From the NCBI RefSeq assembly GCF_026151205.1, contig NC_087076.1, forward strand, positions 7,664,902 through 7,728,901: DNA of 64,000 nt, given 5' to 3'. Below, piece after piece: positions 512-59,880 of the stretch. The notes under the pieces were generated by a model. It saw only the letters and a program-made list of their open reading frames with translations. It ran no database searches and was not told the DNA's origin. The translations under genes and the position numbers were made by a program. The stretch's first letter is position 1. The number at the start of each line of letters is the position of its first letter. The DNA comes from Bolinopsis microptera (Eukaryota > Ctenophora > Tentaculata > Lobata > Bolinopsidae).

Positions 512-1178
512 GAGTTTTATATTTTCTATAAGTACAATATTATATGTTTTGATTCATTGATTAATTAATTGTTGCTAGGGCCCAATGTTATTGCGGGTGT
601 GGTATTTACTGCACACTACCGTGTTTTGGTTACCCCTCTTTCAATACATAATTTGGGTTTCGATATTCTGGGATAGTGAAAATTAGGGCTATATCGGTTT
701 TTTCCTTTTATAACTGGGTTTATTTAGAAGCATTCAATTCTGTATAATTATGTATTGTTTGAAAAGTTTTAGATAAAAAATGTGCCTACGCGTACTGCGT
801 GCCGCGCTTGTTTCATAAGTAGGATAGCCTCCGGCGGTCGCGCGCTACTGCAAGCGAGAGGGCTCTGGTTAGAGCAAGGTATTTTGTATGTATTTGTTTC
901 CACATCTGCACCGTTAGGAAGATGATCTTGTGACAAGAGTTTCAGAGTTATTTTTATACATAGAGAATCTCTAGCTCACTCCCTAGACTAATGTTACACT
1001 GGCATTTAAAGTAAAACTCACATAAAATTTGTTGTACAACTTTTTGTAACTTTTTTGTAAATTTTTTGTAAAATTTTTGTTGATCACCATACTTGCCGGT
1101 CCCTCTTTTGCAGAGTACAGTACTTACTTTTGGTTACTTTGGTTGTGTTTATCCTCGTAGCAGGAAGGGCCAGGGTCA
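512..1178. other. non-coding gap between two LINE remnants
   Basis: No ORF of note. It contains a GC-rich patch near 787-850 and short T-rich runs around 1040-1080. It probably consists of decayed retrotransposon sequence. Confidence 0.35.
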
Positions 1179-1460
1179 TCAGATTTCTGACCACCTCGAT
1201 TGCGAGTAGTCTTCCAGGGAATTAGACCAGCTGCAGCTATAACCGGAAGTCGGAGTGTTGTCCGGTATCAAAGCAATAAACTTGGACAAACTAACTTTAA
1301 ACGACTCAAAAGTAGCTTCAGCTTTAATACTATCAGGCACTTTGTTCCATAGTTTTGGTCCTCTTACAGCAAATGAGCTGTCATAGCGTGTCTGGTTGCT
1401 CGAGGAACTCAACCTAGACAGGGAAGGGATGATTGCTTGGGTACCATGTAGTACTTCCAA
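1179..1460 (-). mobile_element. C-terminal end of a non-LTR reverse transcriptase (remnant)
   Basis: Ninety-three codons on the minus strand, ending at a stop. The segment from RYDSSFAVRGPKLWNKVP (about residues 25-42) followed by ESFKVSLSKFI is the conserved tail of CR1/L2-type LINE ORF2 proteins, which lies after the reverse-transcriptase thumb. The polymerase motifs themselves are absent: upstream of it on the minus strand (towards 1700) the frame is not continuous with recognisable reverse transcriptase. It is therefore a 5'-truncated, inactive copy. It points towards the ORF1-like fragment at 2-511, so the two pieces come from different insertions or were rearranged. Confidence 0.6.
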
Positions 1461-2300
1461 GATTTTTGATAATCACCAGCTAACCAGGCCCTATTTAATT
1501 TTTGCCTCCAATATTTGCTGCTTTTTCATCAGTTGATATCTAAGCAACTTGGTGGAAGTTGCTAATGGCCTCTTCTGTAGGTTGGTATGTGTTGGTGGTA
1601 CATAGGGATGTCATGCCACTGCCTTTCATAGTAAATTAATCTATAATTTTATTTCACTTGTTGCTGCCACTTGTGTCATGCTACCAGGTTTAGGTCGGCA
1701 CTCGGCCAAATGTGCAATTCTGACTGTTTTCCTGTAGAAGACCTGCAGAACCTGCTCAACCCAAAAGGAGTCACTCAATGTTGTTGAGCCTTCACTTACT
1801 TTGGTGTAAGTTGATTTTTCGGTTATAATGTGAGACACAGATGCCTGTGATATATGGAGAACAAGAGAATGTTTTGTTGATTGCTCTGCTGCCTCGTCTT
1901 CATTCAAACAATATATACATTCAATCCTCTTTACAATAATTATGGAGCAAGCGATATTTTGACAATAACAATTTGACAATATAACAATTTGTGTGTAAAA
2001 AACACAGGGGATAGGCTTTCTATTGATATTATAAGATACACGATATTGTGGTCATGGTAACTGACAGGGCCCCTCTTCATTTAACCCTCAATCAATGTTC
2101 TCTGATCATTTGGTTTATTCTATCTTGTGGGTTTGTGTAGATCTTAGCTTAAAAATTTAAGGCAATAGTAGGGCTTAAACAATAAACAAACTTAATTTCG
2201 ATAAGAAATATTCTTAATTCCCATGAATTCCCCTTTCGTGTTTCCAAATGTTTTTACACAAAAGCATGTAACTGACACATGCTCGAAAAGGGGCCTCCTC

Positions 2301-2620
2301 TTAAGGCCACAGGGGGGGGGGTCAGAGATCGAAAAATTTTGTTGGTAGATCACATACTATCTGACGCTCACACACCACCCCTAGCCCCCCAGAGCGCCTA
2401 GTTTGTCGTAAAATTGAGGTTAACTATTGCCTATTCAATCAGTTAACCTTGCTAATAACCAGTTCTTAATGGCCATCCAATGTGAACAGAACTAGTATAT
2501 GCCTTTTATTTATTGGAAAATTGAGGTTAAAATATTTTCTCGAAAATCAGTCTTTTGGCTCTCTTTTGTAAAATAAGGAGATGAAAAAATCCCCAAATAC
2601 CATGATTTAATTTGGGGTAC
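2301..2620. repeat. fragment related to the 20.5 kb TTAA element
   Basis: Begins TTAAGGCCACAGGGGGG at 2301, nearly the same as the terminal repeat of the element at 20538-22056 (TTAAGGCCAGAGGGGGG). It is followed by GAGGTTAA words near 2417 and 2524, the word that recurs throughout the larger element. Only one end is visible, so it is a truncated relative. Confidence 0.45.
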
Positions 2621-3259
2621 GATATGTGGCGGTTTTCGTTTAAAATTCCCATATTTTCGTTCACAAATCATTTAGGTCACCGGAATTATGTCGAACATAA
2701 ATATGTATTATGTATCGTAAGGTAGCTGTTGGTTACTCCTTCATGAATTAATCTAGTCTACAGATGTTTGAAACCGTTTCGATGTATCGTGGACACCCTG
2801 TATTATGTATATCGTGAAGTTATGTACGTATAACTAACATTATAAGCTATTATATCCAGGTAATCTCTAATACAATCTCTAATACAATCCCAACAGAATG
2901 GGGTACGTACAAAATGTTATTAAACAAAAGTCCTAAGTACCAGAGAACTACAAGTTGCATCTTCAAGTTGTAGATACGATACTGCGATAGATTGGTTTAT
3001 AATTTTTCTTGGGCAACTACAGCATTGTCATTTATTATTATCAGCTCTTTCCTCGATTTTTAATTCATAATTGTCATCATAAAATAAAGCAACACTTTTC
3101 TTCAAGTGAACAAGTTGTTCTTAGGCACGTGGTTCTGGAACAAGTGGTCCTATGGCCATATTATATGGCATATTATATGGTAATCGGACAGAATGAGGTT
3201 TAAATCACTTTACATCTTTAATTCTATCGAGTGTCTGTTTGTTATTTACAAATGGTTAA

Positions 3260-3380
3260 ATCAAGAAAACGGTAAGAAATATGGCCTGGGACTGGTTTTT
3301 TCGGTATAGTACCGACAAAACTTTGACGAAGCCAAATGGTTAAGGTTTTTTAAATCGGTCGGTGGTAAATGGTTTAATTG
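3260..3380 (+). repeat. dispersed repeat, copy A
   Basis: Similar to 56643-56766 and 61766-61884. Shared words in the same order are ATCAAGAAAA, GGTTTTTTCGGTATAGT, CCGACAAA, TTAAGGTTTTT and ATGGTTTAATTG. It is non-coding and its ends are not defined. Confidence 0.55.
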
Positions 3381-3709
3381 ATCATTTTGTGACCCACACA
3401 GGTTTCACTAGTAAAGTTATTATATAGATTAATTGTTATAATTATTGATCAATGTTCTTATTGTTCCAAATCTCACATAACAAATTAACTACTAACTAAC
3501 CATATGCCTAACACATTACATATTAATATTATGTTATTTCCTCATCTTTCGGAATTTGGTCTGCTAAAGCACAAAATAATATCAACTTCATGGGAAAAAT
3601 TGAAATATAATCCCTGTGCGTGCGCGTGCTGGCGTTATGTGTGTTAAATACATAAAGAACGTGATATTTGCCCCTCGGATTTAAACTTAAAGAAAAATGC
3701 AGATAACTG

Positions 3710-3809
3710 AAAAATCACGATTTGTTGCGAGGATCTGAGAAAATCGCGATTTGTTGCGGCAAACGTCAAAAATCGCAAATTGTTGCGGAGAATGGGGAAA
3801 ATCGCGACT
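3710..3809. repeat. degenerate ~30 bp tandem repeat
   Basis: Three near-copies plus a partial fourth of a unit centred on AAAATCGCGATTTGTTGCGG. The core TCGCGA is palindromic. Confidence 0.6.
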
Positions 3810-5312
3810 CAGCACGTGCCACAATTTCCTTTTGACCTTGATTACACTTCACAAACCCATCGGGTATGTTTATGAACAGAAGACTTCGACTATCTGAATT
3901 AATCTCAATATTATATTGATTTCCCAACGTATGCATAGGTCGATCCAGATAAAGTCAGGGAAGAGTTTTAAAATATAATCCTTCAAAAAGCCCATGAAAT
4001 TGCAATTGCTGTGTTCCCAAATGGTTTCAAACATATAAAATCCTTGAAATAGGGCCCTAGTCTGATGTGGATGTGTTTTTGAAAGAAATAATCATTTATT
4101 TTTAGACTAAATGGGTCTCTGACTAATTATGTAGACATGGGTGTTGATTAGCCTATAAATGTATTATCCTTGGCCTTGTAAATGTAAACTCTGATAGAAG
4201 CCTGACAGCCTATATCCATGGTACAAAACACAAATCTATATATATTTATGTGTATCCTCTTCCTGTGCTATTGTATTAATTACAATTATACTTTATAATC
4301 AGGCATCCACCATTAAATTTTCGCTAGTCAGCAAAGACGTAACTTTAGAAGATATATCGTTCAACATCTTTTACTGCATTGCACTACCGCTGTCATTTGA
4401 CTTCAATAGCTGTACTAGTCGAGCCTTTATTTCTTTTGTTTTATTTTTACGTAGTTGAAACTACCTAATAACTGTTTCTTCTCTCATCTTCTTCTCATGT
4501 ATTTTTGAACAAAGGCAGGGAAATTACTATACTGTTTGTGTTAGATACAACACACTAATTGTCTATTATTATATAGTATTGACCATTTGACCATGAAAAG
4601 TGGATGTGATGAATGATGGTCGACAGATAAAATTTAAAGGTGGTACTGCGATGTAACATCCTCATACAAAGAATAGTGGTGCCAATTATGCTGTGTCTTA
4701 GGTATTGTGTGGTAACGAGTGTAACTTGGCGTTTCATTGTTGAGACTCACTGTTTACCAATTACGAAGCCCAAGGGGGCCTAAAAGTGAACATGTACTGA
4801 ATCGTGGGTGTATATCTTTTCTTCTGGTTCGAACATATTCTTAACATTGACAATGCTAATTTCAAATAGATACAGTCCTTCTTTGTTTAAAATACGTTCT
4901 GGGCCTGATTCCCTAAAATTGTGGTTACTAAGTATAAGCATATAAACCCGACGGTGTAAGACTCTATGTCGGAGTTTAAAGCAAGATTTAACTTAATTTA
5001 CTGCGTTTCGGGTGACTTTAATCATCTTTAAAAACGAAGGTCCCTTTAAAGGGCATGCGTCGAACTAACACATTTACCGCCGCAATTTGTGGCTAACTAC
5101 CTTCAGTTAAGCTGTTCTATGGATTTGCTTAGCTTTGACTATATGGAGGCATTTCGTAGTGGTTTAATTCAATGCAGCCGCTGTTCTGGGAATGAGATAA
5201 TTTTTCTGTTTAATCTAATTTGGTAGTCATTTGCTGCTGTTTGTAAAATAGGGAAAATGAATTATTTGCTTGCTTAGAATTCGTATAAGTCTGTGCCTTG
5301 GACGAAATGTTC

Positions 5313-5320
<8 letters not shown>

Positions 5321-5347
<27 letters not shown>
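5321..5347. repeat. (AT)n microsatellite
   Basis: About 27 bp of alternating A and T in an intergenic region. Confidence 0.85.
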
Positions 5348-5354
<7 letters not shown>

Positions 5355-8300
5355 ACATAATATATAGACTTGTCGTAGGAGATGTACATGGCCTGGGTAT
5401 GAGCTATTGACCATTAGTGGCAGGAGGTGTTGACAGAATAAGCTCGAAGCTGCTGACAGAATATCTTCATAGTAGTTTTAAGCAAAAACACGTTACTGTT
5501 CCGTCTAGAAGTAGTGCCGATATTCGTACCTTTTTTCTAGACGGATCTCGATTTCTAGACGGATCTCGACAATGTTGTGTTGTCTTGTTGTATTCATAGT
5601 CGACTCTAATCAAAATTTTTGTTCCTGCTTCTCCTACTTTATAAGTCAAGCTAATGTGAGCTCGCTAAATACGTTTTATTAGATTCGGGAGAATTATAGT
5701 CTCATATGGCGCCGAAATAGAGCTCAAATATTTGGTAAGATCTCCTGAATCTCAATAAGAATTTTTGCCAGCGATTACAAAGTTTGTCATAAAGTGTGCA
5801 GGGTGATCAAAATATGTTCTGTCAGAATATTATATTCTTGAATACCTACCTCATTAGCTAGCTGTCAACATGTGCACGTGTTTTGAACTGTCCGTATATC
5901 TGATTTGACTTAAATTGACTAGTGATGAGAGATATGGCACTCAAACGTTTTTGCCTATTTTTAAAAGTTTTTATGCATTATCTTTTCATTTCATGCATTT
6001 GTTTTCTTTTAGGATATGTATCTAGTGCGACGACAGAATAGAATTGACGATGGCTTAATGTATTTCGACCATAGCATAGTGTTTGACCAGTCAGCTTGTA
6101 GGATCGGGTTTGGTAAATCAGAACTAACTTACAAGTCTCTTTTGGGTGTCAAAACGGTCTGCTGAAAACCTAGTTCATTTGCTTTTCTAAACACTGAGCT
6201 GTCTCTTTTTATTACTTTCCCTATAATTTCGCAACTGATCAACAAAACATGCAGTTATGATATGACATTGAACTTAATTTAGCTTTTTTAGATATAATGT
6301 TTTCCTATGTCCTATTTTTACCTTGATTTGTTTTCTACCATTCCGCGATGGCTGACTATCACCCCTTTCTGAACTAAAAAAACATTAGTATACTGAACGT
6401 CTAGACTTTATAAATGATGCAATGTTCTTCCTGACTGAGCAAAGTTTTAATTACTGTGGGCTCAAACCATTCTCAAAATATGTTCTTAAAGTAGGTTCAT
6501 TGTCTTCTACTATCAGTAGTTTGAGCTTTTGAGAAGCCCTAGATGATATGAATTGCTTCTTTTGTCTTCATTGTGAACACTGGAGTAAATAAAGATGATA
6601 GGAATGCATTTTCTACTGATTTCTTTCAATCGTTGTTCCCCTGGGATTCTCCAAGTCAGACAACAATAATGGGAATAGGTGACTTCGTTGTATCCAAACG
6701 TTAAATAATTGTGGAACAAAGCTTATCTACTGCTCTCAAGATACAATAGCTAATGAGCCGTGGCTCTGTAACTATCGGTTGGCCACAGGCTTTAAAGTGG
6801 TTAAACCAAAACAATAAATTGCTCTTTCATACAGTGTGTGACCACGCACAATTTTTGTTCCGAAGTTGTCGTCACATCCTGTATTGTCTGGATTCCAACT
6901 AGCTGGAAAACCATTTAGTGGCACTGCTCCAGGCAGTTAGTAATTAACACTCACAACCACGTAATTTGTCTTTGAGCAACATTTTGAAGCTCCAGATGCT
7001 CAAAGATGCCGAAGATTACCCGGTCAAAAGAATTTTGATAATTGTCATTTATATAAATTATAAAAAGGAAACAATGCATTAAATATTTTCTTGTTAAATG
7101 TCGCATAACAATGAAATTTACATCACAAAACATCTATTGACATTGTCATAGAGAAATTAAAATGTTTACAGCAAGTCAAATTTGTATTATAGATTTACCC
7201 GGGCTTTTTTCATTGCAGAAAAGCAAAGCTTGCCGGGGTAATCAACAAATTTAGCTGAACGCTTCTCATACACTCCATACCATGGAACGTCAGAATTCCA
7301 ACCAGAACAATTTATATCTAGTAGCCAGTAAACATGGCCTCCGTACTTTAAACTGCCAAGTGCTTGCTCGCGCACAACTAGAGATTTAAACAGCAGCCAG
7401 ATATCGAGCAAGTTGAGCAATTATGTTGTTGTTGTTTGGTTACGTTCTATATACTCTTTACGGTCTATATACTATTTGGCTATTTTAATGTTTAAACTTA
7501 AAAACGTGCCGAGCGAACCCGTCGTAGGAATATTCGCCTGGGAAAGTGGGAAATTTATTGACAGTCAGAGAAATCGCCCTTCGCTATAGCTCGCCGTGTA
7601 CGTTGCCCTGTAATCGTTTGTCGCTTTTCTGTTTGGCATATATATAATATATAATATATGTATATTAGCATTACTTTTTGTTGGGTTTTACTTCATAGTC
7701 GGGTGCTACCTTAGTCATAAACGATCGAGGCTGTTACATACAATATAATTTGTGAATTGTAAATGGTATAATCCGTCTTTTTATCCATGACTTATTGAGT
7801 TTTTATCTGCCGAAGCTAAGTTGAGCTAGAATGACAGAGAATAATTAGATATTAATTACATAGTAATTTGGTTATCATTTTATAATCAAGCCATCCTGGA
7901 TGTGAGCTGAGAAAGAAACGATCTGAGTAAGTGTGATTGCCTCTCGTTGGGCTTCCTCCAGATCTCTCACTTTCTTTCCATTGAAGTCAGTGTGCGTGTG
8001 ACTCGTTGCAAGCTCACTTACAATAATTACACAGCTAGCCCCATCTTTATTAGAGCTTTATTTTTAACACTTTTTTTCTGTTGACTGACGTGTACATTTT
8101 GATCATAAAAATAGGTGAATGTGTCATTTTTAGATCATTTGAGCAAGCTGTTGTCAACTTTACTGAGTCAACAGACCACCTGCTCATTTTTATCATGCTG
8201 TTTAAAAATATTTAATCCTTCGGCCAATGGCCTATGAAATAGTACAAGGGATGTGCAAAATTGTTTTTGTTGAAACATTTATTTCATACGGTGGCTCAGT

Positions 8301-10738
8301 TTACATTCTGCTCTACAGTCTACATTATACCTTAATTGAAGACAGCTGCAAAACGGAGGCGACTGACTTCGTCTCAGATGCCTTGATGGATCTCAGGTTC
8401 AAAGTTAAATTGAACTCCGTAGTCGAGAATCTTTCTATTCTTAGTTCAAAATGAGTTTCAATTGCACCGAGACCACTTTGCTCCGACTATTTTATTTCTT
8501 ACAATTTGAACCTCTGGTCAATTACTCGACTAATAACTGCTAGTACGCCGTTTACAGCATTTCACGTGACTAAACTCATTATATTTTCCGTGGCTCGTGG
8601 GGCGCTAATCGTTCGTTATGCCCAGCTAGAGCTCTTATTTTTTCATTTTGGTGGTTGTGTTCCGCTCTCAGATGTAGTTAGATGTGTAATGTGTATGACG
8701 TATCTATATTATACGTGTTTAGGACTGAGTTCAATTTGATCACGTGTCATTGTTTAAGCCAAATAATTTGAGTTCAATTGCTCCATGGATCGTCCTTAAT
8801 TTATTAAGTCATGACGCAACTTCCTGTTCAAACATTTACCGTTAAACCAAGCCTCGATCCGTCTTACCAGGAATAAGTAAATTTATACCTGGAAAACTCT
8901 TCAGGGCCAGTTTACTGTTGGCAAATAAGCTAATAGCTGTCATTACAAGCGAGATTATATTTATCCTGTAAAACGTTCGAAGAGCTGCAAATGTGGGAAT
9001 GTGACTGACACGCTATATAATAATCCAGGATATTGAATAATATATTAACGGCTAATAAAACGTTTATCTAACTCTTAATGGTCACCTGCGTATTGATATG
9101 TGTGTACTGGACACTGGTCTGTAGTCTAAATGTCTTGCTGTGTAATTCGATGGCGTTTAGACTTTAGAGTTTTATTATATAAGCATTCTACATTTTACCT
9201 CAGTTCGCGAGTCTGAAGAAGTTGAATAATGACGGCTGCTCTTAGCTTTACTTGTCCAGTTGTACTTGTACATATCGCGTTTCACTTTTGTTTTTCTTCA
9301 GCTTTATTCAATATTCTCTATAGAAATTAACTCGATCACTAAGTTTTCTTACACTGTATAACATACCATGGAATAAATGTAACCGTGCTCGGCTACAGCC
9401 TTAACGTATTAGTCTAACAAAGCCTCGCTGTTCTGGTAAAAATTTGCAGATTATGGCTCACAATTCTTCTATTATTTCGTCAATAGTCAATAGTCATACT
9501 TATAATCTTCATCGTGCACAAATATGCATCCCGTACGCATTCAAGGCGCAACATATAATGGTTTCATTAAGAGCGTGCCAGCCAACATTTTTTGTTGAAC
9601 ATGTCGTTTTGTAATTATTATCACCGCATGGAATTAGAACAGTTTGTCCTACGTTCTGTTTTGTTTGAAACCGCTAAACCGCAAAATTTGCTATTAGGTC
9701 GCGGTCGCAGTGCAATCAATAATTAGCATGTACTACGATACATTATAATACAAAATATACACAGCCTAAGCTACATACCACAATTCATAGATTAACTATT
9801 ATATATGTGGATCATTTGTCAGGAGATAGTATGCTTGCCTAAGACACGCTGTGTTTATGAATTGTAGAGAAGAGCGATTGTTTGAGACTTATGCTTTTTT
9901 TAGGCTACATAAAATATGCACACATATAATAATATTATGATCTTCAGGTCAGGTGCTGTGATAACGCATGACATGCTCAGCCTATAACAGCCCACTCAGG
10001 TGGATCCACCAGGCTGGTCATTATATACATGTAGAAGGTGTGTCAGGGTTTGCCATGTCCGTGTTATCCGCACAGTTGTCTCGCTGATCCATATTATATG
10101 ATAATACAGGCTCGAGGAGAAGGCTGTGGTGTATTTATGTGTCAACTAGCTAGATCTAATGATATTGTTAATGTCCATATAGCAGGCAACAAAGTACAAC
10201 CTAATGACTTATTAACTCCTGTGACGTGGTTGCAGTAACCAGATCCCGTGTTTTCAGCACGGCTTATTATCAGGCTTGCCTTGTATTTGTTTGTTTTGTC
10301 CGTGTGTGACGCGCCACACTGTTGTCGTTACATGTGTGTATAGACTATATGTACGATCAGCTGGTCGCCGGTTCCTTGTGTGACAAAATCTTCGAGGCAT
10401 GTATTGGCATATTGTGTACAGGCGGAGTTGGGTGATTTGAACAATTGAATTAATATTAGCAGCAATATGTCATTCGTTTTGTGGGTCTATAATGATCGGC
10501 ATAATAGCACTCATTGCTCCAAGTGGCCATGGCAAGTAAAAGATTTGTCATTAAATTTTAATCAGTGATCATGTAAGCGGGGACAAATGTCAATTTATCT
10601 CGACTTCAGTTAATTCATTGGTTAATTGATGATAATGATATCATAAATTAAATCACGATCTTCTAATATTTATGATTAAGCTTCCCGATATATTCAGAGA
10701 ATTAAGAAAACAATTATTTTAATAGAATAATTATTTAT

Positions 10739-10766
10739 TTCATACTTCATACTTCATACTTCATAC
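10739..10766. repeat. TTCATAC tandem repeat, four copies
   Basis: Four exact copies of the 7-bp unit, followed by a broken fifth. Confidence 0.85.
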
Positions 10767-12260
10767 TTTAACTTAATTACTCAAGCTTAGTCCATAAGCC
10801 CAATTGGATCGGTTAGAATTTTCGATCATCGTTAATTGCATCTATAGTTCCTAACTGACACAAATATTTATCGATAAATTTCTGTATAAATTCGAATTTA
10901 TTTATTTATTCCTATCTTGCTGTAAAACCAATTTGCATTCGAGAGCAAGATTTCTGTCCAGTTTTTGATGTATCTCATCTGTACATGCTTGCTTACTTCT
11001 TAGTAATTTGCTTCATCATAATTATTTCAATTTCAGATTGACGTAGGTTGTCTTGTGTTGTATAGTACAACTTTCATCATAATTGAGATTAAGTGTTAAA
11101 GTTTCCGGAGAAGATTTGGTAAGGAAGTAAAATCACTGGGTTTGGGAAAGTAATTTAACTAAAAAATAACGTTTTGTATTTTATACTTACACCAACAATT
11201 CTGGGATTTTTATACATATTCATGACTTTTGTCGTAGAATTCTTGTGCTCTATTTTCATCACATGATACTAGATCAATTTGCACGCTTTATAAACTTGAT
11301 TTTAAATTGGATCCTCATGCACTCTCGCTTTATAGTTTATACTCTTGATTTAAAATCGTACGATCCTCACGCGCTCTCGTATCGTAAATTCGTATAAAAC
11401 CGTTGCTGCTGTTTTTATTGACAGAAGGACAAGTTTTTGTTTACATATGACCTACTATCAAGCATATGTAATGCGTATGGTTTGTTATGATTTCAAAATA
11501 CAACATTTACAATTGTAATGGGCTTGTGTTTTTATAGCAAATTATTTTGCATGCTTTGCTTATAGCATCTGTCTGTGTCACCAGTACAGTGCTTTTATGT
11601 GAGTGATTGTATTGCTCGATGTTATGTCGACATCGTTTGTTACGACGAACAGTTTTAAATCGTCATTCAGCCACTTCAAAAAGATCGAACGATTCGAACC
11701 TATATCCATTATTCAATGCTTAACGGAGTGACTATTAACATCAGATACTGCCATTCATATAGATGTTCATTCATAAGCGAGAATCATTTCCATCATGTTA
11801 CATTTGCTTGTGTTTTAAGCAAGGGCCGCAAATCACGAAGCATTTCCGATTTTTAAAGTTTCACATCGCACGTTGCTATGAAATATTTCATAGGGTCTAG
11901 ACTACACGTACGCGTACCACATTGTTTCACGATAATGAACATAATTAAAATTTATAAATACCATTTGCTCATGTGCATTTGAGGTGTAAGCTGATCGAGT
12001 AAACATGATATTTCTCTGTACTATGAAATTTGTTTTGGTCCCCATTAACGTAGTTATCTCATTTTAAAATCCATTTAACTGTTGTGACATGATCACAGCG
12101 GTCAGGTGGCCCAGACATCTTTTGTAAAACAACAGCTCCTTTACACCCCCTGGGATCACCACTTCTTTGCTTGCTTCTCTGCTTGCTGCTTTGATTGCTG
12201 GTCTTTACCAGGATTTAACATTTTAGAAAATTGTTCAAGTCTGTCATAAAGCTGTCGAAA

Positions 12261-48752: not shown

Positions 48753-49259
48753 CAAGGTTGTTAAATACGTATTAGGAGGGAATACGTATTGGAATACGAA
48801 TACGTATTAATCCTCGAAAATTGACGTATTACGACGTATTCTTTATTCCAAAAATTCAAATACAAAATATGTTGAGGGGACTGAACTTTAGAAAATGGTC
48901 TTAAACTTTGATAATATTAATTGCGAGATCGTTTTAGGAAACGAAATCATTAAATATGTATTAATATGTAATTGATAATTTCGCAAAAAATGTTAGCTTA
49001 TTATCCATGAAATTTGATTACAAATTTAAGTTATCATGTATAACTGCACTCCTTTAATGCATGATCAATGATGAGGGTGGCGCGCAGCTGTAATGTTTAA
49101 TTTTGACAAATCAGCGTATTACGGCGTATTATGGCGTATTCGTGGACGTATTTAACAATCCATAGAAATTACCGTAATCCGGCGTATTACGACGTATTCT
49201 TTATTAGAACCGAATACGTCGTATTCTTTCACGAAAATTTGACGTATTTAACAACCTTG
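48753..49259. mobile_element. hAT-like non-autonomous element (MITE), 507 bp
   Basis: Perfect 18-bp terminal inverted repeats beginning CAAGGTTGTTAAATACGT, flanked by an exact 8-bp direct repeat CATAACTC at 48745-48752 and 49260-49267. An 8-bp duplication and a CARGG start are hallmarks of the hAT superfamily. The interior is filled with ACGTATT and GCGTATT words in both orientations and has no transposase frame. Confidence 0.88.
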
Positions 49260-49522
49260 CATAACTCTACTAGCTGACCCTGACCCAGTCTCTAACCAAA
49301 GCATTCTGCATTTGTCAAACCGTAACCATATCGAGAATCAGAAATTCCTACTTCCTTATATTATTATTATGGTCATGTAACGCGATCAAAACAGTTCTTC
49401 GTTGAAAACTCTTCATGGAAGCATATGCAAGTGTCATGTAGGGTTGACAAAAGGTGCATTTCCCTTTGCGTGCGCGATAAAAAGGGACATGCTGATGCAT
49501 CGTGTTACATGTGGAGCGATTT

Positions 49523-49725
49523 TACCTCGGGACCTCAGCGCGGCAGCCCTCAGGCTTTTTCTGTTCATAAACAGATTACTGGGCGGTGCTCAGCCTGTCT
49601 ATTCGGCGGAATGATTATGATTATGAACATAAATATATTATATAATAGCTTGGGCTCCCCAGGTAAATAAACAGATTGAAGCTACGGCGTGGAATGACAT
49701 TGACAAGCTGAGCGCCACCCAGTAA
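49523..49725 (+). mobile_element. short-element family, copy 1 (interrupted by copy 2)
   Basis: Left end TACCTCGGGACCTCAG, right end TGACAAGCTGAGCGCCACCC then AGTAA. Both are diverged versions of the family ends. Removing copy 2 and one of its target repeats rejoins CTGTTCATAAACAG to GATTGAAG and restores an element of about 100 bp. Its own target duplication is only suggested (GGAGCGATT against GGGTGATT). Confidence 0.55.
49576..49665 (-). mobile_element. short-element family, copy 2 (90 bp, inverted, nested)
   Basis: Runs from TTACTGGGCGGTGCTCAGCC to GGGCTCCCCAGGTA, i.e. the family ends in reverse orientation. It is flanked by ATAAACAGA at 49567-49575 and 49667-49675, a 9-bp target duplication. 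Confidence 0.75.
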
Positions 49726-49806
49726 GGGTGATTCGGAATCAGCGATCAAAAATAAGTCTTAACGAAAAATCTCAACATTTGAGTGTCTGTGTATATATTG
49801 TCATAT

Positions 49807-49912
49807 GTCATACGTTGTATGACCCGCCGCGCACTAGTGCGCGGCTCCCCCTGTATCGTAGAAACTCTACACTACTATAGTGAAGCGACAGTGGGGGTCA
49901 CCACGTGATACA
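49807..49912. repeat. GC-rich palindrome block, inverted partner at 53050-53160
   Basis: Contains a perfect 20-bp palindrome at 49826-49845 (GCCGCGCACT and its complement) and a TCATAC/GTATGA hairpin next to it. The block, through TATCGTAGAAAC to GGGGGTCAC, recurs in reverse complement at about 53050-53160 with roughly 80-85% identity by eye. Confidence 0.7.
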
Positions 49913-49954
49913 ATGTATATAATATCAATGATTTTGGAATTGAATCCGCGAGCT

Positions 49955-50765
49955 TACCTAGGGGACCCCAGGCTATTATGTTCATAAACTAATAATAATA
50001 GGGGGTGCACCATAAAAATAAACTTGCTCGGATTTAAAAAATGTTTGTACCATTGTTTTCTAGAGACTGTGAGAATTTTCACAATACCAAATTTGTCATA
50101 CTTTTTTAGAAAGATCAGTGAGTTTCGCCTAGGTGCCATATTTGATGGTGTGCGGCTTTGGGAGCAAAATTAGCTGTAAAAGTCGCGTAATTTGACCAAA
50201 TTTGACCAAATTCGTTGATTTTTGTCGTATTATTTGGATATATCTTCAATTCCTTGAATTAGATCATTCTGAAAATTGGCGACGACCTTCCAATAAAGCT
50301 TTTACACCTGTCCGAAAAATTTGGTGGATATCGGAGTTGATATAGTAATCAAAATGGGGCAAAATACGCTGCTTTTAGCTGTAAGTGTAACATAATGTCT
50401 GATGGTTGGATATGCTTTAAACTTTTCGGACACTTTCCTTGTAAGTCTATGAGTAAGCTTACCAATTTTTGTTGCAATCGGAGGTCGGGAAGGATACTTA
50501 ATATCTATTTGTTTGAAGAAAATTGTGCTGGCCGAAATTAGCGCTAAAAAACCATCCTACAGTCGGCACGCGCGGCTCACTGTCAATGGCGCACTACCTA
50601 ATAATAAAGATTCGGCGGAATGACAGGCTGAGCGCCGCTTTGACCATTGTTAATGATTTGGCCCGGCGCGTGCTACTTCGTAGCACTTGCCATCGAGAAG
50701 AAAGCGGCGCGCGCTACTTCGAAGAAATTTAGACGAGAAACATCCGTCAAAGCGCCGCCCAGTAA
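49955..50765 (+). mobile_element. short-element family, copy 3 (long version, 811 bp)
   Basis: Left end TACCTAGGGGACCCCAGGC then TTATGTTCATAAA; right end GCGCCGCCCAGTAA at 50752-50765. A second, internal copy of the right-end core lies at 50621-50638. The flanks ATCCGCGAGCT and ATCCGAGCT look like a target duplication with a 2-bp indel. The interior has a GTGCTAC/GTAGCAC hairpin at 50670-50686 and no coding frame. Confidence 0.55.
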
Positions 50766-51441
50766 ATCCGAGCTTGGAGGACTTCGACGCGCCGCGCAAA
50801 CTAGCATTCTGATCTTGCATCGCTTTGCAGAGCCACAATCTGGAAGGGTTGACATCGTCAATCAAATCCGAGCGTGCTTAATTGTTAATCACTTTACAGT
50901 TATAAAAAACATAACTCATTAAGTATTATCAATTAAAGAATTAATAATTTGTTAAGACCTGATGAATTCAGTAACTTCATGCTTGTGAGAAATAATATAT
51001 GCTCCACTGAACATTTTCCTGGTAATTTTGTGTCAGGATGTACACGCGGGTCGCGTTATATTTACAATGTATTGCAATCAAAAGCAATCAATTTCATATG
51101 TTGTGGAATGTGGATGTCACTGTTTTATCATTATTAATTTACTCACCGGTCACACCATCTTCTGTCCTATTGATATTAATATTTGAGTCCGAACGTGCTG
51201 AATCACTATACACTGGATTTAATATGTTATAATCACTTATCACACCGTACGAGCTTACTGATACTTCGCTAGTAGTATTAAGTATAGTGGGTTATGTCCA
51301 ATTTGTATAAGTTTAACTGGATCCTGCAGAAAAAAGTTAAAGGGCTGATGAAATTTAAAAAGTGCTGCCCTTATTTTGTTGAACTAACCTGTAACCTTGT
51401 AGCGCGCGATGCGTTACTGGGCCGCGCATCCAATAATGCTT

Positions 51442-51444
<3 letters not shown>

Positions 51445-51474
<30 letters not shown>

Positions 51475-53026
51475 GAGGCTGGGCCAAGATAGCCCACGAG
51501 AGGATAGCATTGAGATGCTCTGCCTACCTCTGGGGTGTGGCAACCTTGGGGAAGGTTGCCGGTGAAATCAGAGTGATTGGTGGAGGATGGTGTAAGATGA
51601 TATATGAGTCAAAATGATACGCTTAAATGCCAGCTGGGTTTGGAAAAGTAAAACGAGACGAGACAGCATATGAGCTAATACTTTAAGTCACCCCGGTCTG
51701 ATCCAGCTCTTCCGGCACAATTAAGCGTTTGGTGCGGTTTGCGAAATTGACAATTGTGGTGATGTGTTGGTTGTCGAATATGTCATTGACAGAGAGGTAG
51801 TAGTCCTGGAAATATTGACCTCTAATTTGGGCAATAGCTGGACACTGTCCAAGGAAGTGTGAGACAGTTTCCTCTCCGTCGCCGCACATAGGACAAGCAC
51901 TGGTGTTTGATTTGCAAATGGTGTGAAGGTGTTTGTTTAAGCCGCAGTGACCCGTGATGAGGTGAACTGCAGTTCTGTAATCTTGTCTGTTTTTGCTGAG
52001 TGTAGTGTTGAGGTTTTTGATGATTTTGGCATGCTTGTGGCCGAGTGTCAGTTTGGTGTGTCTGGGACCGTCAGTTAACCAAGTTTCCTGATTCAGTCTG
52101 TTGACTTTGTTGTCGATTTGACGCTTGATGTAGGATTGTGGATTTGGACACTTCAAAGTGGATTCACTGGTTGTACCAAGCTTGGCCAGCTCATTTGCTT
52201 TTTCGTTCCCCCACAATCCGATGTGTGCTGCAATCCATCGTATCTCTAGCGTGTTGTTGGATCCGAGTGCATTAAGAGAGTCGTAACAGTCTCTTGTAGT
52301 TCTACTTCGCGTTGAAAGCGCAGAGATAGCTTGTATAGATGAGAGACTGTCAGACCATATGATGATATGTGTGTTGGTATAGGTAGAGAGATATTTGCAA
52401 GCTTCAATGATGGCGGTGAGCTCTGTTTGGTAAACAGTGCAATAATCAGGGAGCTTGAATGATCTTTCTTCAAGGGTGGTGTTATTGTTGTCAGTTGTGA
52501 TGATATAGCCAGCCCCGCATCCTGAGTCTGTGAGTGACCCGTCAGTGTAGCAGGTGATCGTTTCACTGGTAATGTTGTCGATGGTGTTTTGAAGTGAATT
52601 TCTATATTCAGTGGTATCGGCTCCAGGAGTTGTGACGGTGAAGTGCCGTCCCAGCATCATGGTTGGTGTTGTTAGGTCTCTCGTTGCTCTAGGTGGGATA
52701 ATGAGGTCTGCCATGAATTGCTTGTTGATAGTGGTATGATTTTTGATAGTTCCCTTCCTGAAAGCGATAGTTTCAAGAGTGAGGCTGCCATAAGCTTGTA
52801 GCCTGGCCGCACCCTTTGCTGCTTCGCCTTGCAGGAACAGTATGATGTCAGAAGTGTCGGTGAGGTGATTCAATGCGATAAAAGGTGTGCTTGGCATGGC
52901 ACCAGACATCATTCTGAGTGCCAATGCCTGAACACGTTTGAGTTTCTTCGCGTTATAGTCCGTTTGAGTGGCCCTGATCCATATACTACAGCAGTAGGAT
53001 AGGATTGGACGGATGACAGCCGTGTA
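51445..53026 (-). mobile_element. 5'-truncated non-LTR retrotransposon (RNase H-bearing LINE)
   Basis: The poly(A) tail appears as a T run on the plus strand (to 51470), followed by about 210 bp of 3' UTR and the end of ORF2. The insertion is flanked by the identical 14 bases CAATAATGCTTCTT at 51431-51444 and 53027-53040, a classic target-primed insertion. Truncation removed everything before the reverse-transcriptase thumb. It inserted into older repeat sequence (the CGCGATGCGTTACTG block, which recurs inverted at 53225-53240). Confidence 0.92.
51683..53024 (-). CDS. LINE ORF2 C-terminus: RT thumb, RNase H, zinc finger
   Basis: The frame can be read from an ATG at 53044, but its first six codons come from flank and target duplication. 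Element sequence starts at Tyr7 (YTAVIRPILSYCCSIWI, the thumb). RNase H follows with Asp168 (CYTDGS), Glu208 (YQTELTAI), Asp232 (IWSDSLSSIQAI) and AHIGLWGNEKANELAKLG, where the usual final Asp is Asn284. A zinc finger C384-x2-C387-x8-H396-x4-C401 closes the protein. RNase H downstream of RT is typical of I/R1/LOA-type LINE clades. Because polymerase and endonuclease are missing, the copy is dead, yet the remaining 450 codons are intact, so it is young. Confidence 0.88.
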
Positions 53027-53186
53027 CAATAATGCTTCTTGCAACCACTTCTATCACGCCGTGACCCCCATTGTCGTTTCACTAAGTGGCGTCCCCTTTA
53101 GCGTTTCTACGATACATGGGAGCCGCGCACTTGTGCGCGACGGGTCATACAACGTATGAAAAGCATATAACGTATGAAAAGCAATT

Positions 53187-53322
53187 AATTGACGATGTCA
53201 ATTCATCTCAGCTCGGCGCGGCACAGTAACGCATCGCGCTACAAGAAAAGCAACCACTTCGTTAGATCGGCGAAATGCGCTACTGGGCCTCGCCGAGCTG
53301 CGAAGAATTGACGTCGTCAATT
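53187..53322. repeat. imperfect 32-bp-arm hairpin, GC-rich
   Basis: Left arm 53187-53218 (AATTGACGATGTCAATTC through CAGCTCGGCG) pairs with 53291-53322 (CGCCGAGCTG through GACGTCGTCAATT). The ~70-base middle contains GCGCTAC words seen elsewhere in this island. Confidence 0.6.
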
Positions 53323-53449
53323 AACAATTAACCTGTAACCCTCCTAGCCCTATAGAGTGTAAGTGTCGTCGATTAATTGCACATGTGGCGAGGTGGAAGC
53401 CAGATCAATAGATTGTATATATAATTACACTGCATGCAGTATCACTATT

Positions 53450-53519
53450 TACCTGGGGACCCCAGGCATTATGTTCATAAAAGATTTGGCGGAATGACAG
53501 GCTGAGCGCCGCCCAGTAA
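53450..53519 (+). mobile_element. short-element family, copy 4 (complete, 70 bp)
   Basis: Starts TACCTGGGGACCCCAGGC, continues TTATGTTCATAAA, ends TGACAGGCTGAGCGCCGCCC then AGTAA. It is flanked by an exact 10-bp direct repeat TATCACTATT at 53440-53449 and 53520-53529. This is the clearest copy and defines both ends. Confidence 0.85.
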
Positions 53520-53742
53520 TATCACTATTAGCTAGTGAGTTATGTCCAATTTTAATTTATTTTTTAAGAATGGTATGGATCCTGACGAAACATTGCACTA
53601 AACCAGAATATAGCCCTGGCCTGCGCGCTATACTATTAGTATAACTAAAGAGACAGGTCGCTGGCGCAGAATTTGTAATTCTGTGCAGTGAAAACAAACA
53701 CATTAAGTACTAGTAGCCTTAATCTTATCAAACTGCAAACTT

Positions 53743-53985
53743 TACCTGGGGACCCCAGGCCAATAATGTTTATGAACATATTAATATTATAACGGGTGAT
53801 ACTCGTAAAATATTTGTTTCAAATATTATAAAATATTTGTTTCAAATTGAAATAAGACCGCGTCGACGAGTCTGGAGTCGAACTCGGCGCGAGTCTTGGT
53901 AGGTTATAAACGGAAACCTACAATAAACATACAACATAGATTGTGGATTGAGGCTGCCGGTGACAGGCTGAGCGCCGCCCAGTAA
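53743..53985 (+). mobile_element. short-element family, copy 5 (243 bp)
   Basis: Same left end (TACCTGGGGACCCCAGGC at 53743) and right end (TGACAGGCTGAGCGCCGCCC then AGTAA at 53961-53985). The flanks share ACTT only. The left boundary of the 5.1 kb tandem duplication falls inside it, so only its right part reappears at 58938-59086. Confidence 0.65.
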
Positions 53986-58362: not shown

Positions 58363-59880
58363 CTGAAAAGGAGAGGAACGTAAAAACACTAAAATTAAAA
58401 AGTACAAGCAACGTTATGCACTTGAATACCGGTGAGAAAGCAACTGAGGAAAAACTACTCTTGAAATATTATTATTCTATTGTATACGTTGCATTGTATA
58501 TCGTAAGTTAATTAATGAATTCATTGCGAACAATATAATTATACACTCCCTTGCAAAACGCTCGACGTTAGAAGAACTTTCGAATGTTTCCCTTCCCAAA
58601 CTTTCCAGCACAATACAACACGTTAAACAAACGATGGAGCATAATTACGTATGTCAAAGAAACAAAACTCATTATTATCTCCGGTTACACAAAACTATTT
58701 ACTAAACACTGAACAACAAACAATGATCTAATTCTACGCACAATGCAGTGTGCAACGTTTACGTGTACATATTATTAGTTCCTTAGTGTAATCTGAAGCG
58801 AGAAAGGATTGGTGCCGCGGCCGCCAGGTTCAACCCTAAAAGTTGGTTGAGCAGTTTTTATTAGAAAAACAACTACCAGATTTACACTTTTTTTCTTAAG
58901 AAGGATTCTTAAGAAGGATTGATACCCAGGCAGCATATTATAAAATATTTGTTTCAAATAAGACCGCGTCGACGAGTCTGGAGTCGAACTCGGCGCGAGT
59001 CTTGGTAGGTTATAAACGGAAACCTACAATAAACATACAACATAGATTGAGCTGCTGCCGGTGACAGGCTGAGCGCCGCCCAGTAAACTTTGATTAAAAT
59101 TATATAAGTATAACTAACTTAAATAAGTTAACTAACTTAAATAGGATACTAAAAATAAAATATAAATAATATATCCATTGTTAGTATTAGTAGTATTGTT
59201 AAGCATTGAGATTGGAGATTGCAACTTTATTTAAATGAAAACATTATTATCATTTATGTCAAAAGTGGAAAAAAGTTAACAGGAGTTTCAATATAAATAG
59301 CAATAGATTGATAATGATAAATTGTTTTGTTGGACACACATTTTCATTCACACATATTAGATTTAGATAACATCAGAACTTTTTAATAATATTGCAAAAA
59401 AACTTCGCTCGCAACCGACTGAATTCAGGGACTTGGAAGAAAAAAAATTTACGACTGCAAAATTGCAAATGCTCATATTCAATATTGTAATAAAAAATTG
59501 TATTATTCATTGTTGCCACGTGAATTATATGCAAATATTATATATTTAATTATTCCTAAAATAGTTTTAAATCTGGAAAATTATTAATAGGTAAATCATG
59601 GGCTTCATCTGCGATCTGCAAATATCTGAAAGTTCAGAAAAAGACAGTTTTCAAAGTTCAAACAATTCTATTTACGGATCATTAAAATATTTATGAAGCA
59701 AAAAGTTTCTAACTTTAGCCTCTCCCACCATTTTGCTTTGGAAGTTTACGATTTTCACCAAAACTAAAAAAGAAATTTATAGAACATTTATAAATGCTTC
59801 CTCATTCCTAAGCCGCAAACATCAAAATTTGTCACAATTTTAGTTAATTGAAAAGCTTTAAATAATTGCAGTCACTTCGA

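Follow-up and report, generated by a model that had tools for sequence, protein, structure and literature searches.

Mutator-like elements (MULEs) and Merlin elements provide the nearest comparisons for the short transposons analysed here, and both are cited from excerpts of the papers concerned. MULEs generate target duplications of 8–11 bp, and some of their groups are listed without terminal inverted repeats (TIRs) in the excerpted part of a MULE survey (PMC6446971). In Aedes aegypti, 14 of 14 MULE families carry duplications of 8–9 bp (PMC5225508, excerpt), and most arthropod MULE termini have a conserved G/C in their first three base pairs (PMC13359780, excerpt). Muta1, a Phantom-group MULE of Ae. 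aegypti, leaves 8- or 9-bp duplications, has a short imperfect palindrome at its terminus and has more than 300 putative non-autonomous derivatives whose interiors are mostly variable; it also has 145-bp TIRs, subterminal tandem repeats and a known transposase (PMC5225508, excerpt). The Merlin superfamily likewise leaves duplications of 8 or 9 bp, with highly imperfect TIRs in some families and a conserved 5′-GG-3′ at the TIR terminus (PMC8101967, excerpt).

We compare these systems with a family of very short elements in the window, the whole 64,000-nucleotide stretch of the Bolinopsis microptera genome that was analysed. The family resembles Muta1 in its 8- or 9-bp duplications, its short terminal palindrome and its many non-autonomous copies. 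Unlike Muta1, its TIR is just TTAC(-)TGGG and no transposase has been tied to its ends. The family is most likely a nearly TIR-less, high-copy MITE family, that is, a non-autonomous cut-and-paste DNA transposon, that is moved in trans. No such family appeared among the titles and abstract openings screened for work on MITEs, MULEs, Merlin and introners and on record-short elements; the literature was queried by topic rather than by end sequence, and its coverage excluded Repbase and most subscription journals. The elements seem to constitute a new and genuine MITE family, of a kind already known, whose end sequences are themselves a candidate for novelty.

A short family with constant ends

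Across the genome (264.65 Mb, 232 contigs), the exact left end TACCTGGGGACCCCAGGC occurs 908 times and the exact right end GGCTGAGCGCCGCCCAGTAA 910 times, compared to 0 occurrences for the backward-pattern control of either. A sequence-only reading of the window had described five sequences that share these ends and differ in length; all five are present where it placed them, and the roughly 900 exact occurrences of each end bear out its claim that the ends stay constant. Its lengths (70, 90, about 100, 243 and 811 bp) need a small correction, as each element starts one T earlier. Almost all copies read include this T as part of the element, so that the true termini are TTAC...GTAA and the true sizes are 71, 91, 104, 244 and 812 bp. 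The consensus of the short-element family is TTACCTGGGGACCCCAGGCTATTATGTTCATAAACATAGAATAAAGATTCGGCGGAATGACAGGCTGAGCGCCGCCCAGTAA, with 82 positions, and its copies are typically 70–100 bp long and code for nothing. Divergence from the consensus has a median of 6% and a range of 0 to 17% in 35 copies, a set in which young copies are over-represented because most loci were picked via the exact left end. When a profile of the element was compared with 20 pre-chosen 10-kb stretches, it detected 3 copies at E < 1e-4, 2 of them full length, and a reversed-sequence control on the same stretches detected none up to E = 1; the 27 elements of this profile analysis were restricted by script to 110 bp. These 20 stretches suggest a genome-wide copy number of very roughly 4,000 (Poisson range about 800 to 11,600).

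The weak terminal repeat noticed earlier (TTAC-TGGG) is confirmed at less than 10 bp: the TIR amounts to TTAC(C)TGGG versus TTACTGGGC, about 8–9 bp with one gap. Of the two palindromic ends, the left is near-perfect over 15 bp and the right is imperfect. Both ends had been said to fold on themselves, which is clear for the left palindrome and not clear for the right end. Folding of five copies as single-stranded DNA gave a z-score of -6.4 in one longer copy and of -0.9 to -2.4 in the other four. Covariation within the left palindrome is not supported in a very small sample, with a compensating base in 1 of the 5 genome copies that have a C-to-G change in the left arm. No Rfam entry matched within the window at its gathering score.

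The 71-bp copy, TTACC...GTAA, is a complete short element at 53449..53519 (+) and reads as a clean insertion between two 9-bp target duplicates, TATCACTAT, at 53440..53448 and 53520..53528. The exact 10-bp repeat TATCACTATT formerly assigned to this copy consists of these 9 bp plus the element's own T. The inverted copy, previously described as sitting inside an older one, does so: a complete 91-bp element occupies 49576..49666 on the minus strand, bordered by the 9-bp duplicates ATAAACAGA at 49567..49575 and 49667..49675. Its host is an older diverged copy spanning 204 bp (49522..49725, +), which measures 104 bp once the nested element and one 9-bp duplicate are subtracted. The 812-bp sequence (49954..50765, +) had been counted among the five copies at 811 bp; it is a composite, in which two later insertions interrupt a short copy, and not a longer relative. 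Its own duplication is degenerate. One of the two inserts, in its right end, belongs to a second short family (TTGAC...GTCAA, about 111 bp, with one extra T before it; 50639..50750, +) and is bordered on both sides by the 8-bp repeat AGCGCCGC; the other is presumably hAT-like, judged from the look of its ends. The 244-bp copy (53742..53985, +) differs in its interior and lacks a target duplication in register. A second occurrence of its right half, together with the downstream flank, lies at 59029..59086 (+), with no recognised left end. At up to 3 mismatches, the window contains 4 left-end matches (one being the same palindrome on the other strand) where 0.02 are expected, and 6 right-end matches where 0.00 are expected; 4 mismatches are needed to match the left end of the 204-bp and of the 812-bp copy.

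The window also codes for a Na/Ca exchanger and a rhodopsin-type receptor (GPCR). At 51683-53044 (minus), an open frame of LINE type that includes an RNase H domain lies beside a poly-T run at about 51443-51470, and comparison of its protein with viral contigs confirmed no relative. Words resembling GTATTACGGCGTATT recur densely, by eye, at 48800-49260.

Longer members of the family do occur elsewhere. Among the matches listed on contig 1 (99 left and 87 right ends), exact left and right ends form 22 pairs at a spacing of 69–104 bp, one pair at 198 bp and three at 350–373 bp. The three longest copies have a common interior and define a subfamily of about 350 bp, with the same ends and the same type of target duplications as the short elements. 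Used as a query, this interior produced 278 candidates, and the 40 that were scored yielded 41 matches at 84–100% identity. The sequence-only reading had proposed a search for a longer relative with a transposase; among the exact ends listed, no transposase was found between these ends.

Flanking duplications and empty target sites

Duplications were tested on the 35 profile matches that reach both ends; loci L017 and L018, which are repeats of window copies, were omitted from this test, from the reading of the termini, from the consensus and from the second-family comparison, and were kept in the comparison made for the window's copies. Perfect flanking repeats of 8 bp border 7 of the 35 copies and perfect repeats of 9 bp another 7, compared to 0.18 and 0.21 expected when flanks are shuffled among the copies; repeats of 10 bp border none of the 35. 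The 8- and 9-bp classes are separate registers, and neither is nested in the other. We also tabulated 41 insertions by hand, consisting of the 35 profile copies (21 with and 14 without a duplication) and six added rows that all have one, namely L028, the three 350-bp copies, the C4 copy and a 6-kb pair; this table does not include the foldback arms or the window copies of 204, 244 and 812 bp. Flanking repeats are present in 27 of the 41 insertions, 16 of 8 bp and 11 of 9 bp, of which 19 are perfect and 8 have one mismatch, and are absent from the remaining 14. The duplications of 9–10 bp reported earlier are accordingly revised to 8 or 9 bp, and the flanking repeats predicted for other genomic copies appear in about two-thirds of those tabulated. 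A 55-bp copy (L028) and a 60-bp copy (L020) have perfect repeats of 8 and 9 bp, respectively; single copies such as these may have been shortened by deletion after insertion.

Empty sites, whose search had also been proposed, were found, and those observed are paralogous. The copy at L002:1443-1519 sits within an abundant repeat, and its uninterrupted target, a single TGGTTAGAG, aligns in L011, where the alignment continues rightward. A 22-mer of that repeat, with the target once and just one base to its right, is intact at 800 genome places. The same 22-mer also spans two other targets, that of L002:1285-1366 and, at one mismatch, that of the C4 copy, and therefore three insertions have entered the same repeat at different points. 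A second short repeat surrounds the copy at L001:1438-1519 and has uninterrupted versions in the window, L004, L047 and L020. As a separate observation, the abundant target repeat with its 800 genome places is located at 856-876 of the window and contains GCGAGAGGGCTCTGGTTAGAGC, which we take to resemble the A-box region of a tRNA.

Together, the constant ends, the 8- or 9-bp duplications and the empty sites establish that the elements inserted as DNA through a staggered-cut enzyme. Because the short element codes for nothing, we infer that this enzyme acts in trans. The same evidence bears on the proposal that the sequences are not mobile at all, and form a dispersed satellite or a recombination relic with chance flanking repeats. 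The 244-bp copy could be read in this way, with its missing duplication and its segmentally repeated right half. However, shuffled flanks supply about 0.2 perfect 8- or 9-mers against the 7 of each that are seen, and empty sites exist; the duplications and empty sites refute this explanation, and we give it practically no weight. What remains is a short, non-coding, high-copy family with constant ends, a fixed class of target duplication and empty sites, as in a MITE.

The lengths and sequences of the duplications also speak against two other kinds of short element. MITEs of the hAT superfamily are likewise short and non-coding and may have 8-bp duplications; hAT duplications are 5–8 bp long (PMC4482050, excerpt), whereas 11 of the 27 found here are 9 bp. 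Introners, which spread by supplying introns, are similarly very short and high-copy, with median lengths of 30–654 nt and, in some cases, 3–9-bp duplications and no TIR (PMC9860276, excerpt). In contrast, neither strand of the elements here begins with a donor site, and they carry no fitting splice sites. GT is present in just 9 of the 27 duplications by eye, about the chance level and without visible enrichment, and several copies sit inside other repeats. It is highly improbable that the family consists of introners.

Candidate sources of the transposase

The transposase is most likely Mutator-like, of the Phantom/Muta type, and supplied in trans, an assignment to which we give about an even chance. 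We rank it first because animal MULEs make a mixture of 8- and 9-bp duplications, some MULE groups lack TIRs, and this genome contains MULE genes: the MULE transposase domain PF10551 has 88 matches in it, some in open frames of 300–500 aa. The sequence-only reading had favoured Mutator-like transposases from the size of the duplications, which remains plausible at 8 or 9 bp and within the 8–11 bp of MULEs; Merlin makes the same duplications, though, and no transposase is tied to these ends. The TIR is below 10 bp rather than long, which does not exclude a MULE as some groups are listed without TIRs. The termini begin TTA, unlike the G/C start of most arthropod MULEs, and for this reason the Mutator-like assignment is placed slightly lower, and Merlin and an undescribed lineage slightly higher, than they would otherwise be. 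The 14 tabulated copies with no duplication also count against it. Mutator-like mobilisation remains the most likely, the other two are ranked second, and the family is not filed as a MULE.

Under Mutator-like mobilisation, a DDE transposase acting in trans would bind two subterminal motifs, the left palindrome CCTGGGGACCCCAGG and the right motif CTGAGCGCCGCCCAG. It would join ends that are just about 40 bp apart and would make staggered target cuts of 8 or 9 bp. The subfamily of about 350 bp could then derive from the missing autonomous element with less of its sequence deleted.

Among the exact-end pairs in the matches listed, no element unites TTAC/GTAA ends with a transposase, and no PF10551 match falls within 8 kb of any of the 140 non-canonical end sites that were listed in full. 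On contig 1, the matches listed include two pairs at 1.0 and 1.3 kb, in which the left end is already paired elsewhere, and further left–right pairs at 5.0, 6.07, 6.7, 12 and 17 kb. A perfect 9-bp duplication flanks the 6,073-bp pair, and 1.5 kb from its middle holds no open frame longer than 65 aa; on the strength of this 1.5 kb of interior, we interpret the pair as a short copy that other insertions have interrupted. The 5.0- and 6.7-kb pairs have no duplication. Two PF10551 matches lie close to family ends. One, in L050, is beside a left end that has its own right end 78 bp away, and the other is about 650 bp from a 350-bp copy that is a complete element with its own 8-bp duplication; in both cases, a complete element of the family lies beside the gene and not around it. 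The open frame at L050:2897-4318 (minus) encodes FLYWCH and MULE domains in 474 aa, and 21 inverted-repeat pairs, among which its terminal repeat may lie, were listed across 7 kb at this locus. As it is drawn from exact ends among the matches listed, the missing autonomous partner is weak evidence.

Another candidate partner was TTACCTGGGGACCCCAGGCTG, which forms 17 facing (-,+) pairs, 0.8–9.7 kb apart (e.g. C12:6245336-6248245 and C10:11453879-11456672); the same listing contains two more neighbouring pairs in (-,-) and none in (+,-) orientation. As an autonomous element these pairs were rejected, as the inverted repeats run on at both sides of the arms in the two pairs with both arms read. 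Each arm read holds a short-element relative, oriented to face its counterpart in the other arm, between 9-mers resembling TGCCAGCCG that by eye are identical at 8 of 9 positions in the C10 pair and at 7 of 9 in the C12 pair. The C10 pair has seven extra bases ahead of TTACC, and 900 bases of one pair's interior are largely minisatellite. We read the TTACCTGGGGACCCCAGGCTG pairs as a foldback-like carrier and not as the partner; the short transposon has apparently been amplified as a passenger of foldback-like elements.

Alternatively, the transposase moving this kind of MITE could belong to Merlin (IS1595-type), a superfamily whose duplications are also 8 or 9 bp, as found here, and in which some families have highly imperfect TIRs. 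Merlin transposase genes share the genome with the short family: PF12762 has 58 matches, several of them in open frames of 318–337 aa whose identical scores suggest recent copies. Against an expectation of 1.16 (7 x 0.166), five of the seven Merlin matches on C1 have an exact family end within 10 kb, four of them on the same strand. However, the three of these five neighbouring end sites that were read are two complete short elements and one that continues as the left part of the 350-bp subfamily, and no element shared between Merlin and the short family emerged from them. The conserved terminal 5′-GG-3′ of Merlin (PMC8101967, excerpt) is likewise absent from the TTAC...GTAA termini, and we consider mobilisation by Merlin unlikely. 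In a separate region of about 0.46 Mb (C6:15354568-15818579), 5 MULE and 7 Merlin transposase matches are interspersed, possibly forming a transposon-rich cluster.

A second short family and the minimal transposon

The second family, about 111 bp long with TTGAC...GTCAA termini, has members at window positions 50639-50750, at L047:1429-1543, and in L001 and L005. By eye, its duplications are 8 or 9 bp long (AGCGCCGC in the window, GGTAAGATC in L047 and CAAAATGG in L001), and a copy in L004 has none. The first 20 bases of this family, preceded by C, occur at 38 genome places.

The two short families of the window have a common formula, TTAC..GTAA or TTGAC..GTCAA with 8–9 bp duplications, which is what would be expected if both belonged to a separate, undescribed DDE group seen just as tiny derivatives. 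Their termini match neither the G/C start of most arthropod MULEs (PMC13359780, excerpt) nor the GG of Merlin (PMC8101967, excerpt), and the exact-end lists contain no MULE or Merlin gene between TTAC/TTGAC-type ends. This evidence comes from exact ends among the matches listed, however, and no new transposase was seen. MITEs are also commonly without an autonomous copy, and we hold such a group to be rather unlikely, with Mutator-like mobilisation still preferred. A broader and more speculative possibility, which we would not expect to hold, is that several unrelated families of 55–110 bp with this formula and 8–9 bp duplications are moved by one undescribed transposase lineage that pairs ends a few DNA turns apart. 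If true, the 55-bp copy, whose duplication is perfect, would approach the smallest size physically possible for a cut-and-paste substrate.

Repeat finders tend to overlook elements as small as about 80 bp. Finding the partner transposase would make the minimal spacing of two transposon ends directly measurable. A high-copy family of about 80 bp, with hardly any TIR, shows how little DNA a eukaryotic transposase needs.
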